Shown here piece by piece: positions 7,854 through 14,108 of a stretch of 54,711 bases of DNA. The stretch spans positions 1 through 54,711 of the forward strand of contig PNKL01000016.1 in NCBI GenBank assembly GCA_013822425.1, given 5' to 3'. The number at the start of each line of letters is the position of its first letter. Position 1 is the first letter of the stretch. The translations under genes were made by a program, and so were the position numbers. This DNA comes from Gemmatimonas sp. GTDB lineage: Bacteria > Gemmatimonadota > Gemmatimonadetes > Gemmatimonadales > Gemmatimonadaceae. Under the pieces are notes generated by a model. That model was not told where the DNA came from. It was given only the letters and a program-made list of their open reading frames with translations, and ran no database searches.

Positions 7854-8321
7854 ATGGTAAGCCGAAAGCGATCGGCATTCCAGTATCGGTTCAAGGTGAA
7901 CTTCAAGCGTCGCCGGTCGATATGGCGCTCGGTCGTCCTGCGCGGAGACCAAACGCTCGACGACTTGCATGAGATGATCTTCAGTGCTTTTGATCGCAGC
8001 GACCCCCACCTGTATTGCTTCTACTTTCCTAACGCGGCAGCGCGTCGGGCCCCGCTTGGCAAGCGACCCAAGTCGTATATCTCCCCAGAAGCATTCGAGC
8101 CGTCCGCATTCGACAACCGGGAGAGTGCGGACAGCGCGACGCTCGACGAACTCCATTTCCGGACTGGCCAGACGTTCGAGTACCTGTTCGACTTCGGCGA
8201 CGAGTGGTGGCACGAAATCACGGTGGAGGACATCGGCCCGATTGAATCGGGTGCGCCGTATCCTCGCATCGTGGCGCGGAAGGGAGATTCACCACCGCAG
8301 TATCCGGAGGCCGGCGAGTGA
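7854..8321 (+). CDS. Plasmid pRiA4b ORF-3-like protein
   Basis: 155 residues with a good ribosome binding site (GGGAGG) before the ATG. FQYRFKVNFKRRRSIWRSVVLRGDQTLDD matches the conserved opening of the pRiA4b ORF-3 family (YxFKVxLxxxxPxIWRxxxVxxxxTLxDLHxxI), followed by a His/Tyr-rich strand and TFEYLFDFGDEWWHEITVED, the family's FDFGDxWxHxI signature. The family is common on plasmids, islands and in IS elements, and often sits in the same protein or near SEC-C domains; function unknown. It directly follows an ATPase pseudogene, so it looks like the surviving part of an accessory segment. Confidence 0.75.
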   Translation: MVSRKRSAFQYRFKVNFKRRRSIWRSVVLRGDQTLDDLHEMIFSAFDRSDPHLYCFYFPNAAARRAPLGKRPKSYISPEAFEPSAFDNRESADSATLDELHFRTGQTFEYLFDFGDEWWHEITVEDIGPIESGAPYPRIVARKGDSPPQYPEAGE

Positions 8322-8521
8322 AGAGCAGAGCGGCATTGAACAGAGACGGCCGATTTCCGTGGAGACCCCTCTGCTCGGGTGACCGCGTGCGCTGATCCGC
8401 GTTCATCCGTGCAATCCGGAGTTCGGCAGTAATGGCCGGCGCTGGCGCGAAGTTCAACCGACCCCCGCTTGCCTTCCTCATTCGCCCACACGATCATTAG
8501 TGTTGAATACGACAACCGAAG

Positions 8522-8576
8522 CTCGTGGCGATTTTGGGCAAATTGCGGCCACGTTAATCCCTCGCTAAAGCGCCAG
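8522..8576 (+). promoter_or_regulatory. SAM-II-like (SAM_alpha) riboswitch aptamer upstream of metH
   Basis: P1 is CGTGG (8524-8528) with CCACG (8549-8553). The loop begins CGATTT and ends with TTGC just before the right P1 arm, then TTAA, and CGCTAAA at 8563-8569: this matches the SAM-II consensus order GUGGYGAUUU ... UUGC ... CCACGUUAA ... CGCUAAA. The pseudoknot can form between 8535-8539 (TGGGC) and 8572-8575 (GCCA), a changed but complementary pair compared with the usual CC/GG. It sits about 75 nt before metH, the expected gene type. Recognised by eye; not scored with a covariance model. Confidence 0.65.
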
Positions 8577-8583
8577 CCCTGGG

Positions 8584-8607
8584 CGCCCCGTCGCCGAGGG
8601 CGTTTTT
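8584..8607 (+). terminator. Intrinsic terminator between the riboswitch and metH
   Basis: CGCCC (8584-8588) pairs with GGGCG (8598-8602) and is followed by five T (8603-8607). An alternative hairpin, GCGCC (8570-8574) with GGCGC (8582-8586), would use bases needed both for the riboswitch pseudoknot and for the terminator's left arm. That is the layout of an antiterminator/terminator switch. Confidence 0.55.
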
Positions 8608-8652
8608 CGTTCCTCCTCGCTCCACTCGTCCCCCCGCACCACACCCTGTACC

Positions 8653-11600
8653 GTGCCTCATTCCCCTCCCCCCGTCAGTTCCGCTTATCTCTCCGCCCTC
8701 GGGGAGCGCGTGCTCGTTTATGACGGCGCGATGGGGACGAGCATCCAGCGCTTCCACCTGACTGCGGACGATTTCGGCGGCGGATCGCTCGAGGGGTGCA
8801 ACGACCACCTGGTGCTCACGCGCCCCGACGTCATCCAGTCGATCCACGAGTCGTTCCTCGCCGTGGGCTGCGATGTCGTGGAGACCTGCACGTTCCAGAG
8901 CACGCCGCGGCGGCTCGGCGAATGGGGGCTCGAGGAGAAGGCGCGCGCCATCAACATCGCGGCGGCGCGCGTGGCGCGCGCGGCCTGCGACAAGTTCGCA
9001 ACCGCGGCGCAGCCGCGCTTCGTCGCGGGCTCCATCGGCCCCACCGGGATGCTGCCGAGCTCGAGCGATCCGGCGCTTTCGGCCATCACCTTCGCCGCGC
9101 TCGCCGAGCAGTACTACCTGCAGGCGAAGTACCTCGTCGAGGGCGGCGTGGACGTGCTCCTCGTCGAAACGTCGCAGGACATCCTCGAAGTCAAGGCGGC
9201 CATCGCCGGCTTCGAGCAGCTGTTCGCGGAGATCGGCCGCCGGCTCCCCGTGCAGGCGCAGGTGACGCTCGACACGAGCGGGCGGATGCTGCTCGGCACT
9301 GACATCGCCAGCGCGATGACGACGCTCGAGGCGCTCCCGGTGCACGTGATCGGGCTGAACTGCTCCACCGGGCCGGAGCACATGCGCGAACCGGTGCGCT
9401 GGCTCACCGAGCACGCCACGCGCCCCATCAGCTGCATCCCCAATGCGGGGCTCCCGCTCAACACCGGCACCGGCGACGCCGTCTATCCGCTGGAACCGGC
9501 GCCGATGGCCGAGGCGCTCCGCGAGTTCGTGCAGCAGTTCGGCGTGCGCATCGTTGGCGGGTGCTGCGGCACCACGCCGGCGCACCTCGAGGCGGTCGTG
9601 CGGGCGGTGCGGGGGGCATCCGTGTCGGCCGATGTTCGCAAGACGCCAGCGACACTCGGGCCGTCGGCACCGGCTGCGGCTTCTGGCGCCGCGGCGTGGG
9701 TACCGCGCGCCCGCGCCGTCCCCCGCGTCTCGTCCGCCATGCGCGCCATCACGCTGCATCAGGACCCTGCTCCCCTGCTCGTGGGCGAGCGTGTCAACGC
9801 GCAGGGCTCGCGCAAGGTGAAGCGCCTGCTCCTCGCCGAGGACTACGAGGGGATCCTGGAGGTCGCACGCGAGCAGGTGGACGGCGGCGCGCACGTGCTC
9901 GACGTCTGCGTGGCCGTCACCGAGCGCGGCGACGAAGCCGACCAGATGGAGCAGGTGGTGCGCCTGCTGTCGCAGTCGGTGGAGACGCCGCTGATGATCG
10001 ACTCCACCGAGCCCGACGTCATCGCGCGCGCGCTCGAGCACGTCCCCGGCCGCGCGCTCGTGAACTCCATCAACATGGAGAACGGGCGCAAGCGCATCGA
10101 GGCCGTCGTCCCCATCGCCAGGAAGCACGGTGCCGCTTTGGTGGCGCTGACCATCGACGAACACGGGATGGCCAAGACCGCCGCGCGCAAGCTCGAGGTG
10201 GCCCGCAAGATTCACGACATCGTGGTCGGCGAGTACGGCATGTCGAGCGACGACCTGGTCTTCGACGCGCTCACCTTCACGCTCGCCACCGGCGACGCGG
10301 AGTGGATCGACTCGGCGCACGAGACGATCGACGGCATCCGCGCCATCAAGCGCGAGCTCCCCGGCGTCCTCACCATCCTCGGCGTCAGCAACGTCTCGTT
10401 CGGACTCGACCCTGAAGCGCGCGGCGTGCTCAACTCCGTCTTCCTGCACCACTGCGTGCAGGCGGGGCTCGACGCCGCCATCGTGAACCCGGCGCACGTG
10501 ACGCCCTACGCGGAGATCCCGGAGGTGGCGCGCGAGCTCGCCGATGACCTGATCTTCAATCGGCGACCTGACGCGCTGCAACGACTCATCGAGCGATTCC
10601 AGCAGACGGCAGACGGCGGACGGCAGACGGCGGAAAAAGCGGATCCGACCGAGGGCATGTCGCCCGCGCAGCGCGTGCACTGGATGGTGGTGCACCGCAA
10701 GAAGGAGGGGATCGAGGACGCGCTCGACACGGCCGGCGTGCGCGAGCAGCCGGTGCGCGTGCTCAACGAAGTGCTGCTTCCGGCGATGAAGGAGGTCGGC
10801 GACAAGTTCGGCTCGGGCGAGCTCATTCTTCCCTTCGTGCTGCAGAGCGCCGAGGTGATGAAGCGGGCCGTGAAGCACCTCGAGCAGTTCCTCGAGCGGC
10901 AGGAAGGGTATACGAAGGGGACGGTGGTGCTGGCCACGGTGTACGGCGATGTGCACGACATCGGGAAGTCGCTGGTGAACACCATCCTCGCCAACAACGG
11001 CTACACGGTGCACGACCTCGGCAAGCAGGTGCCCGTGAACACCATCGTGGACAAGGCGGTGGAGCTGAAGGTAGACGCCATTGGCCTCAGCGCGCTGCTG
11101 GTGAGCACGTCGAAGCAGATGCCGTTGTGCGTGCAGGAACTCGACCGCCGCGGGTTGAAGTTGCCGGTGCTCATCGGCGGCGCGGCGATCAACCGCCGCT
11201 TCGGCCGGCGGGCGATGTTCGTCGAAGGCGAGCGCGCCTACGCACCGGGCGTCTTCTACTGCAAGGATGCGTTCGAGGGGCTCGAGACGATTGACCGGTT
11301 GCAGGACCCGGCCACCCGCAAGGCATTTACGCAGCAACTGATGGACGACGCGCGCAACGACGTTTTCCTCAATACGGGCGTCGGCAAGGACATCCGGGCC
11401 GGCGAGAGCGGCGGCGCCCGCAGCGACGTGCGTGCCGATGTGCCCGTGCCGCGCGCTCCGTTCTTTGGCGCGCGAGTGCTGCATGACATTCCGCTGGCCG
11501 AGGTTTTTGCGCTGCTCGACCTCGATGAACTCTACCGCCTGCAGTGGGGCGGCCGCGGCTCGGGGCCCGCGTACGACGACGTCGTGCGCGACGAGTTCGA

Positions 11601-12234
11601 ACCGGCGCGGCGGCGGCTCGAAGCCGAGGCGCTCCGCGACGGCTGGCTGAAGCCGCAGGCGGTGTACGGCTACTTCCCCGCCCAGAGCGACGGCAATGCG
11701 ATCATCGTGTACGACCCCGCCGCCTATGAGAGCGACGGCGCCGCGCTGCGCGAGATCGCGCGCTTCGAGTTCCCGCGCCAGGCGGGGCGTGAGCGGCTCT
11801 GCCTCGCCGACTATGTGCGCCCGGTCGCCAGCGACGCGGTGGACGTCATCGCGCTGCAAGTGGTGACGGTGGGCAGCACCGCGTCGGCGCGGTTCGACGC
11901 GCTGCAGCAGGCGGGCGAGTACAGCGAGGCGTTCCTGGTCCACGGACTCGCCGTGGAGACAGCTGAAGCGGTGGCGCAGTGGATGCACGCGCGCATCCGG
12001 CGTGAACTCGCGCTTGAAGACGAACGCGGCAAGCGCTACTCGTGGGGTTACGGCGCCTGCCCCGACCTCGGCGATCACGGCCAGGTCTTCAGGCTGCTGC
12101 CGGTGGAAGCGTCGCTCGGCATGACGCTCACCGAGGCGTTCCAGCTCGTCCCGGAGCAGAGCACCGCGGCCATCGTGCTCCACCACCCGGAGTGCAAGTA
12201 CTATGCCGTGCGCACCGCGGCGGAGGCTACATGA
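8653..12234 (+). CDS. metH: Cobalamin-dependent methionine synthase
   Basis: 1193 residues from a GTG at 8653. It moves the methyl group of 5-methyltetrahydrofolate to homocysteine through cobalamin. Domains in order: homocysteine-binding (about 1-320, zinc ligands Cys237, Cys304, Cys305 in GLNCS and GGCCG); pterin-binding (about 365-640, beginning VGERVNAQGSRK); a linker built from a 7-nt repeat (about 651-662); helical cap (about 670-750); B12-binding (about 755-890, DVHDIG with axial His768); and a reactivation domain to the C-terminus with YFPAQSDGN and YSWGYGACPD. Full length for the family. The stop overlaps the next start (ATGA), and a SAM-II-like riboswitch with terminator precedes it, so high SAM should turn it off. 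Confidence 0.95.
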   Translation: MPHSPPPVSSAYLSALGERVLVYDGAMGTSIQRFHLTADDFGGGSLEGCNDHLVLTRPDVIQSIHESFLAVGCDVVETCTFQSTPRRLGEWGLEEKARAINIAAARVARAACDKFATAAQPRFVAGSIGPTGMLPSSSDPALSAITFAALAEQYYLQAKYLVEGGVDVLLVETSQDILEVKAAIAGFEQLFAEIGRRLPVQAQVTLDTSGRMLLGTDIASAMTTLEALPVHVIGLNCSTGPEHMREPVRWLTEHATRPISCIPNAGLPLNTGTGDAVYPLEPAPMAEALREFVQQFGVRIVGGCCGTTPAHLEAVVRAVRGASVSADVRKTPATLGPSAPAAASGAAAWVPRARAVPRVSSAMRAITLHQDPAPLLVGERVNAQGSRKVKRLLLAEDYEGILEVAREQVDGGAHVLDVCVAVTERGDEADQMEQVVRLLSQSVETPLMIDSTEPDVIARALEHVPGRALVNSINMENGRKRIEAVVPIARKHGAALVALTIDEHGMAKTAARKLEVARKIHDIVVGEYGMSSDDLVFDALTFTLATGDAEWIDSAHETIDGIRAIKRELPGVLTILGVSNVSFGLDPEARGVLNSVFLHHCVQAGLDAAIVNPAHVTPYAEIPEVARELADDLIFNRRPDALQRLIERFQQTADGGRQTAEKADPTEGMSPAQRVHWMVVHRKKEGIEDALDTAGVREQPVRVLNEVLLPAMKEVGDKFGSGELILPFVLQSAEVMKRAVKHLEQFLERQEGYTKGTVVLATVYGDVHDIGKSLVNTILANNGYTVHDLGKQVPVNTIVDKAVELKVDAIGLSALLVSTSKQMPLCVQELDRRGLKLPVLIGGAAINRRFGRRAMFVEGERAYAPGVFYCKDAFEGLETIDRLQDPATRKAFTQQLMDDARNDVFLNTGVGKDIRAGESGGARSDVRADVPVPRAPFFGARVLHDIPLAEVFALLDLDELYRLQWGGRGSGPAYDDVVRDEFEPARRRLEAEALRDGWLKPQAVYGYFPAQSDGNAIIVYDPAAYESDGAALREIARFEFPRQAGRERLCLADYVRPVASDAVDVIALQVVTVGSTASARFDALQQAGEYSEAFLVHGLAVETAEAVAQWMHARIRRELALEDERGKRYSWGYGACPDLGDHGQVFRLLPVEASLGMTLTEAFQLVPEQSTAAIVLHHPECKYYAVRTAAEAT
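10603..10634 (+). repeat. 7-nt tandem repeat inside metH
   Basis: Four and a half copies of (C/A)(A/G)GACGG-type units: CAGACGG, CAGACGG, CGGACGG, CAGACGG, CGGA. It is in frame and encodes QTADGGRQTAE between the pterin-binding and cap domains. Similar GACGGCAGA strings occur between genes near 195-213 and 467-506. Confidence 0.75.
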
Positions 12235-14108
12235 GCGCGGCCCGCAGCGACCTGCTCAAGCGCCTGCTCGACCCGACACAGGTGGTGATCGCCGATGGCG
12301 CGATGGGGACGATGCTGTACGCCAAGGGCGTCTTCATCAACCAGTGTTACGACGAGCTCAACGTGCGCCAGCCCGACCTGGTGCGCGGCATCCACGCCGA
12401 CTACGTACGCGCCGGCGCCGAGCTGCTCGAAACCAACTCGTTCGGCGCCAACCGGCCCAAGCTGCAGCATTACGGACTCGAGGCGCACGTGCACGAGTTC
12501 AACCTCGCGGCGGCCACGCTTGCCCGCGAGGCGGCGGGTGATGAGGCACTGGTCGCCGGCGCCGTCGGACCACTCGGTGTGCGCATCGAGCCCTATGGCC
12601 CGACGTCCCGCGAGGAAGCACAGGAGTTGTTTGCTGAGCAGATGCGCGCCCTCAAGGAGGGCGGCGTGGACTGTTTCATCCTCGAGACATTCAGCGACCT
12701 CGACGAGATCGCGCAGGCGGTGAAGGCGGCGCGCGCGGTGGATCCGACGCTGCCCGTGATTGCGCAGGTGACGGTGGGCACGGACGGGGTGACCTCGTTC
12801 GGTGTTCCGCCGGAGGAAGCCGCAGAAACGCTCGACGAGACCGGCGCCGACATCATCGGACTCAACTGCTCGGTGGGGCCGCAGACCATCCTCGAGGCGA
12901 TCGAGCGGATGGTGCCGGTGACCACGAAGAAGCTCTCCGCCATGCCCAACGCCGGTATGCCGCGCGAGGTCGGCGGGCGCCACATGTACATGGCGAGCCC
13001 CGAGTACATGGCGAGCTACGCCCGCAATCTCATCCAGGCCGGCGTGCGCCTGGTGGGTGGCTGCTGCGGCACGACACCGGAGCACATCCGCGCCATGGTG
13101 GACGGCGTGCGTCCGCTGGTGCCGCGCCATGCCACGGTGGAGCAGTCGGCGGGTGGCGGGCGTCTGTCGCGCGTCGCCGCACATCCCGAGTCGCACGCCG
13201 TCGCGGCGGTGCCGCTCGCCGAGCGCTCGGCGTGGGGGCGCAAGCTCGCCGCCGGCGAGTTCGTGACGAGCGTGGAGATCGTGCCGCCACGCGGCGTCGA
13301 GCCATCAAAGATGCTCGCCGAAGTGCGCAAGCTGAAGGAGGCCGGCGTGGATGCGGTGAACGTGCCGGACGGCCCGCGCGCACAGAGCCGCATGAGCGCC
13401 ATCGCCACCAGCGTGCTCATCCAGCAGGCGTGCGGCATCGAGACGGTGACGCACTACGCGTGCCGCGACCGCAACCTGCTCGGCATGCTCTCGGACCTGC
13501 TGGGCGCCTCCGCGCTCGGGCTGCACAACGTGCTGCTGGTCACGGGCGATCCGCCCAAGATGGGTCCGTATCCCGATGCTACCGCGGTGTTTGACATTGA
13601 CGCCATCGGCTTGACCAACCTCGTCAGCCAGCTCAACCATGGCATGGACCCGGGCGGCAACAGCATCGGCGCGCCGACACGGTATGTCATCGGCGTCGGC
13701 GTGAATCCGGTGGCGATAGACGTCGAGCACGAACTGAAGCGCTTCGCATGGAAGGTGGAGGCGGGAGCCGAGTTTGCGGTAACGCAGCCCGTCTTCGACC
13801 CGGCGCAGCTCGAGTCGTTCGTGTCACGCATAGCGGACACGCGCATTCCCGTCGTGGCGGGCATCTGGCCGCTCGTGTCGGTGCGCAACGCCGAGTTCCT
13901 GGCCAACGAGGTACCGGGCGTGAGCGTGCCGGCGGCTATCATCGACCGCATGCGCCGCGCCAACGAGAAGTCCAAGGACCACGCGGTGGCCGAAGGCATT
14001 GCGATCGCGCGCGCGATGCTGGAGCGCGTGCGGCCGGGGGTGCAGGGGGTGCAGGTGTCGGCGCCCTTCGGGAAGGTGGAGCTGGCGCTTGAGGTGTTCA
14101 AGGCGTAA
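12231..14108 (+). CDS. Homocysteine S-methyltransferase / methylenetetrahydrofolate reductase fusion
   Basis: 625 residues. The N-terminal half (about 1-300) is a homocysteine-binding domain with VIADGAMGTMLY and intact zinc ligands Cys213 (GLNCSVG), Cys278 and Cys279 (GGCCGTTP). The C-terminal half (about 335-620) is the FAD-dependent MTHFR barrel: FVTSVEIVPPRG, VTHYACRDRNLLGM, LLVTGDPPKMG, GAEFAVTQPVFD, PVVAGIWPL. MTHFR makes 5-methyltetrahydrofolate, the substrate of the adjacent MetH. The same domain order is seen in Bacillus YitJ. The ATG at 12231 overlaps the metH stop by 4 nt, so both are co-translated under the riboswitch. The frame extends upstream to 12042 but that part is a metH shadow. 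Confidence 0.92.
   Translation: MSAARSDLLKRLLDPTQVVIADGAMGTMLYAKGVFINQCYDELNVRQPDLVRGIHADYVRAGAELLETNSFGANRPKLQHYGLEAHVHEFNLAAATLAREAAGDEALVAGAVGPLGVRIEPYGPTSREEAQELFAEQMRALKEGGVDCFILETFSDLDEIAQAVKAARAVDPTLPVIAQVTVGTDGVTSFGVPPEEAAETLDETGADIIGLNCSVGPQTILEAIERMVPVTTKKLSAMPNAGMPREVGGRHMYMASPEYMASYARNLIQAGVRLVGGCCGTTPEHIRAMVDGVRPLVPRHATVEQSAGGGRLSRVAAHPESHAVAAVPLAERSAWGRKLAAGEFVTSVEIVPPRGVEPSKMLAEVRKLKEAGVDAVNVPDGPRAQSRMSAIATSVLIQQACGIETVTHYACRDRNLLGMLSDLLGASALGLHNVLLVTGDPPKMGPYPDATAVFDIDAIGLTNLVSQLNHGMDPGGNSIGAPTRYVIGVGVNPVAIDVEHELKRFAWKVEAGAEFAVTQPVFDPAQLESFVSRIADTRIPVVAGIWPLVSVRNAEFLANEVPGVSVPAAIIDRMRRANEKSKDHAVAEGIAIARAMLERVRPGVQGVQVSAPFGKVELALEVFKA

Follow-up and report, generated by a model that had tools for sequence, protein, structure and literature searches.

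The window, i.e., the whole stretch of 54,711 nucleotides analysed here, contains metH, which encodes a cobalamin-dependent methionine synthase, followed by a gene encoding a homocysteine S-methyltransferase/methylenetetrahydrofolate reductase fusion protein of the YitJ type (Table 1). The two genes overlap by 4 bases (ATGA), as read directly, and the GTG start codon of metH aligns with ATG in relatives. The initial annotation had spoken of a metH-MetF fusion operon; this is right if it means metH and then the fusion gene, as both TIGR02082 and PRK08645 matches indicate. While GGAGG precedes the start of the fusion gene, direct reading found no Shine-Dalgarno-like sequence before the start of metH, a difference that favours transcriptional over translational control. 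The gene upstream of the metH leader (7854–8321) is PRiA4_ORF3-like. Between this gene and the aptamer lies a promoter-like block, consisting of TTGC and ATCATTAG (ATCATTG in G247), which is kept in 11/11 congeners with near-constant spacing (23–25 bases, start to start); the block does not match the σ70 consensus, and a σ70 promoter scan found nothing, so that its role as a promoter is putative.

Table 1. Features of the metH leader and operon, with positions numbered from the first base of the window.
Feature	Elements	Positions	Strand	Evidence
Conserved promoter-like block upstream of P1	TTGC 8469–8472; ATCATTAG 8493–8500	8469–8500	+	Kept in congeners
SAM-II aptamer, covariance-model extent		8515–8588	+	RF00521, 28.3 bits (gathering cut-off 36); R2, 68.5 bits
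P1 helix	CGUGGC 8524–8529 with GCCACG 8548–8553	8524–8553	+	Covariation class-wide
L1, third strand of SAM-binding triplex by analogy with SAM-II/SAM-V structures	GAUUU	8530–8534	+	AUUU invariant in 48 class sequences
P2a, distal pseudoknot helix	GGC 8537–8539 with GCC 8572–8574	8537–8574	+	Changes on both sides
P2b, predicted SAM-binding pseudoknot helix	UUGC 8543–8546 with GC-U-AA 8564–8568	8543–8568	+	Invariant; role from literature
Predicted antiterminator hairpin	GCGCC(A) 8570–8575 with (U)GGGCGC 8580–8586	8570–8586	+	Minimum free energy (MFE) fold of nascent chain
Intrinsic terminator	8576–8585 with 8592–8601 (9 bp, one G-G mismatch); U tract 8603–8607	8576–8607	+	Folding energy, covariation, class survey
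metH, cobalamin-dependent methionine synthase	GTG start	8653–12234	+	TIGR02082, 1084.7 bits (cutoff 1010.85); complete Pfam domains
Homocysteine S-methyltransferase/methylenetetrahydrofolate reductase fusion (YitJ type)		12231–14108	+	NF006396/PRK08645, 742.8 bits (cutoff 453)

The SAM-II element order claimed in the initial annotation (CGTGGC-GATTT-GGC-TTGC-GCCACG-TTAA-CGCTAAA) was read directly at 8524–8569, and the strand order P1-L1-P2-P1′-L3-P2′ with a single P1 stem was read at 8524–8574. When 8300–8800 was searched with all Rfam models, RF00521 (SAM_alpha, SAM-II) was the sole family found at E ≤ 10; it matched over its full model length (E = 1.8e-4), yet the score fell below the Rfam gathering cut-off, and with gathering cut-offs applied the whole window gave zero matches. 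The models for SAM-V, SAM/SAH, and SAM-II long loop (RF01726) did not match the element at E ≤ 10, and a genome search found no SAM-I riboswitch. In Bacillus subtilis, a gene for a homocysteine methyltransferase/MTHFR fusion, yitJ, is controlled by a SAM-responsive terminator in a SAM-I (S-box) leader; that leader resembles the one described here in its target and terminator control, but its aptamer is unrelated. The second-best RF00521 match in the entire 3.57-Mb genome scored only 15.3 bits. Because the site in the window is under the Rfam cut-off, relatives were examined for support. A hold-out covariance model (R2), built from 40 sequences from other genera of the class and none from the element's own genus, scored the element far higher (genome-wide E = 2.5e-14, short calibration) and gave no further match in the window or the genome. 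The gathering score is a curation threshold rather than a structural feature, and it appears conservative for this lineage, since 139/295 class genomes pass it, a metX-type copy in one congener passes it at 36.3 bits, and the lineage model scores the present element at 68.5 bits.

RF00521 also gave matches at E ≤ 1 in 212/295 class genomes and at E < 0.005 in 124/126 sampled genomes of the same order. An element of the same type as that in the window was found in 11/11 genomes of the genus, with metH as the next gene in each. Named relatives of the window MetH come from MAGs of Gemmatimonadaceae and other Gemmatimonadota; in 16 of them, metH is immediately preceded by the element (58–75 bits with a class model), and these 16 comprise two congeners (L068 and L071) and 14 Gemmatimonadota loci outside the genus (58–74 bits). 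Conservation upstream of metH in relatives, which had been proposed as a check on the annotation, is thus evident both in and beyond the genus. No SAM-II was found before metH in the loci outside Gemmatimonadota (Chloroflexota and others). Diverged SAM-II elements were found in three further metH loci, two of them labelled Longimicrobium or Longimicrobiaceae; one (L085) passes RF01726 at 45.0 bits (cut-off 44), another (L124) passes RF00521 at 37.7 bits, and the third (L103) scores 36.8 and 27.9 bits, just below both cut-offs. These Longimicrobia-type leaders have P1 helices of GGUGG/CCACC and P2a helices of CGAC/GUCG. The window genome has one SAM-II only; at least 7/10 congeners have a second copy, located before metX- or metY-type genes.

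Alignment of the relatives showed that both P1 and P2a change on both sides of the helix. Among 48 class sequences, 98.6% of cells in P1 and the pseudoknot are paired, with four pairs changed on both sides, and sliding the partner columns by one to three positions lowers pairing to 25–51%; among 28 metH leaders, 99.2% of cells are paired, also with four pairs changed on both sides, and the covariation score exceeds that of all shuffles. Counts as high were reached by 0/500 shuffles for the class sequences and four changed pairs by 6/500 for the metH leaders, although such covariation counts may be exaggerated because the shuffles ignore relatedness. In P1, U-A is replaced by A-U in five and C-G by A-U in one of the 48 class sequences, and C-G is replaced by G-C in three Longimicrobia-type loci in the metH-leader alignment. 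The outer pair of P2a changes from GC to CG in 8/48 and to UG in 1/48 class sequences, and two P2a pairs show changes on both sides among the 28 metH leaders. Change of one helix in separate lineages offers good support for the predicted pairing. P2b is invariant in 48/48 class and 28/28 metH sequences, as are the ligand-pocket elements AUUU, UUGC, and GCUAA in alignments A1 and A2; the aptamer core is invariant across 11 congeners. The initial annotation had proposed a pseudoknot pairing TGGGC with GCCA, changed on both sides; the both-sided change holds for a 3-bp GGC/GCC helix, but the outer U-A pair is inconsistent and was rejected, as it can form in only about half of the congeners (5/11, with C-G in one and C/A in the remainder). 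The L3 segment reads UAAUCCC in the window, as compared to UAAACAA in the consensus. Without the pseudoknot, 8526–8538 could pair with 8559–8567 (UGGCGA and GGG with CCC-UCGCUA); this alternative structure would disrupt P1 and depends in part on the unusual UAAUCCC of the genus.

Judged from these sequence features, the metH leader carries a genuine SAM-II aptamer. L1 is assigned to the triplex on the basis of structural work on SAM-II and SAM-V (PMC6061858, PMC5352136). A SAM-II-like pseudoknot that binds another ligand, e.g., SAH or another adenosyl compound, is very improbable; specificity is unreadable from sequence, and L3 and P2a depart from the proteobacterial consensus, but the elements that contact the ligand (AUUU, UUGC, and GCUAAA) show no change, the genes downstream serve the synthesis of methionine, from which SAM is made, and neither SAM-V nor SAM/SAH models matched at E ≤ 10.

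A terminator hairpin with a U5 tract, placed directly 3′ of P2a, is common to the congeners. A T-tailed terminator had been annotated at 8584–8607; the terminator itself is borne out, but its 5-bp stem (8584–8588 with 8598–8602) was rejected, as 85.5% of its cells are paired with zero changes on both sides, and the covarying stem is the one listed in Table 1. Within the genus, both partners have changed in two pairs of this stem: 8579–8598 is C-G in nine congeners and U-A in two, while 8580–8597 is U-A, A-U, U-G, or G-U in six congeners and unpaired in four. The stem energy is −17.7 kcal/mol, although, taken by itself, the folding energy is unremarkable for this GC-rich sequence (z = −1.4), and a simple terminator scan missed this hairpin. 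In a survey of 63 class loci (49 loci including the window and the 14 named loci), a terminator-like hairpin was found no more than 110 bases from the aptamer in 50, as compared to 8% of shuffles. It is hardly credible that this terminator serves the upstream PRiA4_ORF3-like gene and that the aptamer has decayed into a non-functional remnant; the sub-threshold RF00521 score would fit such decay, but the core shows no variation among 11 congeners, the helices covary, the promoter-like block separates the upstream gene from the aptamer, and the terminator begins one base after P2a and approximately 255 bases beyond the upstream ORF.

The alternative hairpin at 8570–8586 that was proposed in the initial annotation is recovered when the nascent RNA is folded: MFE structures of chains ending at 8586–8594 pair 8570–8574 with 8582–8586. 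Formation of this hairpin takes up the P2a 3′ strand together with a portion of the terminator 5′ arm and would thus preclude both P2a and the terminator. Within the genus, 94% of its cells are paired, with no changes on both sides; in one locus (L073), GCGCC/GGCGC is replaced by CCGCC/GGCGG. An antiterminator overlapping the P2a 3′ strand and the terminator was predicted in 42/46 loci, although 64% of GC-rich linker shuffles also pair with the terminator; only the pooled energies of the nascent folds separate observed from shuffled linkers (mean of −7.5 versus −5.8 kcal/mol, Wilcoxon p = 4e-7). The predicted antiterminator is the part of the switch with the weakest evidence. Nearest-neighbour energies for the full-length RNA are −19.1 kcal/mol for the terminator and −6.7 kcal/mol for the antiterminator, even without SAM, suggesting that a switch governed by thermodynamics alone would largely stay in the off state; with the terminator so much more stable, switching, if real, must be settled during transcription.

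Overall, the leader is very probably a transcriptional SAM-II OFF switch of the metH operon that works by competition between antiterminator and terminator; its anatomy fits the originally proposed model, in which a SAM-stabilised pseudoknot blocks the antiterminator. When SAM is scarce, 8570–8575, just 3′ of the aptamer, would pair with 8580–8586; the resulting hairpin would occupy the 5′ arm of the terminator, and polymerase would continue into metH and the fusion gene. When SAM is abundant, the pseudoknot would be stabilised and 8572–8574 held in P2a, so that the antiterminator could not form, the terminator would fold, and transcription would end before metH. High levels of SAM, the methyl donor, thus most likely stop transcription of the methionine-synthase operon; SAM binding and the direction of switching are inferred, and, with the terminator far more stable than the antiterminator, control would have to be kinetic, during transcription. 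It is unlikely that the SAM-II element acts on metH translation alongside a terminator that is incidental or attenuates constitutively. There is a precedent in Sinorhizobium meliloti, whose metA terminator is not predicted to be SAM-controlled (PMC9373788), and in a few loci of the class (e.g., L010, L011, L013, and L026) the start codon of a YitJ-type fusion gene is found approximately 10 bases past the aptamer core with no intervening terminator, suggesting that translational SAM-II variants are likely to occur in Gemmatimonadota. However, the metH start codon in the window is about 80 bases from the aptamer, no Shine-Dalgarno-like sequence is within reach of the pseudoknot, and within the genus the terminator shows both conservation and covariation.

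The transcriptional control proposed for the metH leader is in line with previous studies of SAM-II. Most SAM-II riboswitches are transcriptional according to published work (PMC2258182, PMC6061858); Corbino et al. 2005 described many SAM-II aptamers as being followed by terminators, with promoter elements located immediately 5′ of P1 (PMC1273637), and terminators were also described by Scheuer et al. 2022 for the SAM-II riboswitches of metZ and metA in S. meliloti (PMC9373788). The suggestion that a transcriptional SAM-II would be notable was therefore not borne out, and novelty on this ground was rejected; with terminators and transcriptional control already in the literature, the mechanism predicted for the element in the window is of the usual SAM-II kind. 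As in the original RF00521 elements (PMC1273637), P1 is combined with an H-type pseudoknot, AUUU, UUGC, and GCUAAA are invariant, and the element lies before methionine genes, with a terminator downstream and a promoter-like block just upstream; the element in the window differs in its Gemmatimonadota host, its 3-bp P2a (60% of SAM-II have a 5-bp P2a; PMC6061858), its L3 segment, and its lower RF00521 score. The S. meliloti metZ riboswitch likewise precedes a methionine gene and is predicted to act by SAM-dependent intrinsic termination (PMC9373788), but it differs in target gene and phylum, and its read-through and terminated RNAs were measured. RF01726 has the same fold and is found before metH in the Longimicrobia-type relatives, and SAM-V has a near-identical pseudoknot binding core (PMC6061858), but neither model matched the element in the window. 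No paper reporting SAM-II in Gemmatimonadota was found in the open-paper literature; a database annotation very likely exists, as Rfam's own model finds these elements. The element is thus a real but ordinary SAM-II with a terminator in an uncultured Gemmatimonadota bacterium, which brings a textbook class of riboswitch into a phylum that is common but poorly studied and leaves the view of SAM-II action unchanged; its compact form, a transcriptional SAM-II whose P2a has only 3 bp, makes it a test case for antiterminator competition.

Elsewhere in Gemmatimonadota, the element precedes metH, genes for YitJ-type fusions, metF, metX, and metY. In four related genomes (G054, G284, G263, and G199), SAM-II (53–61 bits) was also found directly before panB (L006, L009, L020, and L023; L139–L142), a pantothenate gene encoding ketopantoate hydroxymethyltransferase (TIGR00222, 260–266 bits in three loci; PF02548 in L020); the genes 3′ of panB vary between the four genomes. 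PanB uses 5,10-methylene-THF, which is the substrate of MetF. SAM-II before panB is more unusual than the metH leader itself. It is possible, with a chance slightly short of even, that the order containing Gemmatimonadaceae uses SAM-II as its standard SAM sensor, mostly in the form of kinetic transcriptional switches with a short P2a, and that the regulon extends past methionine to pantothenate synthesis (panB). A third SAM-II copy in one genome (L047/L143, G295:C6:31890–31965) is located before genes encoding a RimK-like ATP-grasp protein and an LLM flavin monooxygenase that is closest to the dimethylsulfone monooxygenase SfnG, at 246 bits and thus under the cut-off for SfnG; this copy may control organosulfur use. 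Another SAM-II (L147, G186:C13:43670–43719) was found before a gene similar to those encoding bifunctional aspartate kinase/homoserine dehydrogenase (PRK09436, 665 bits).
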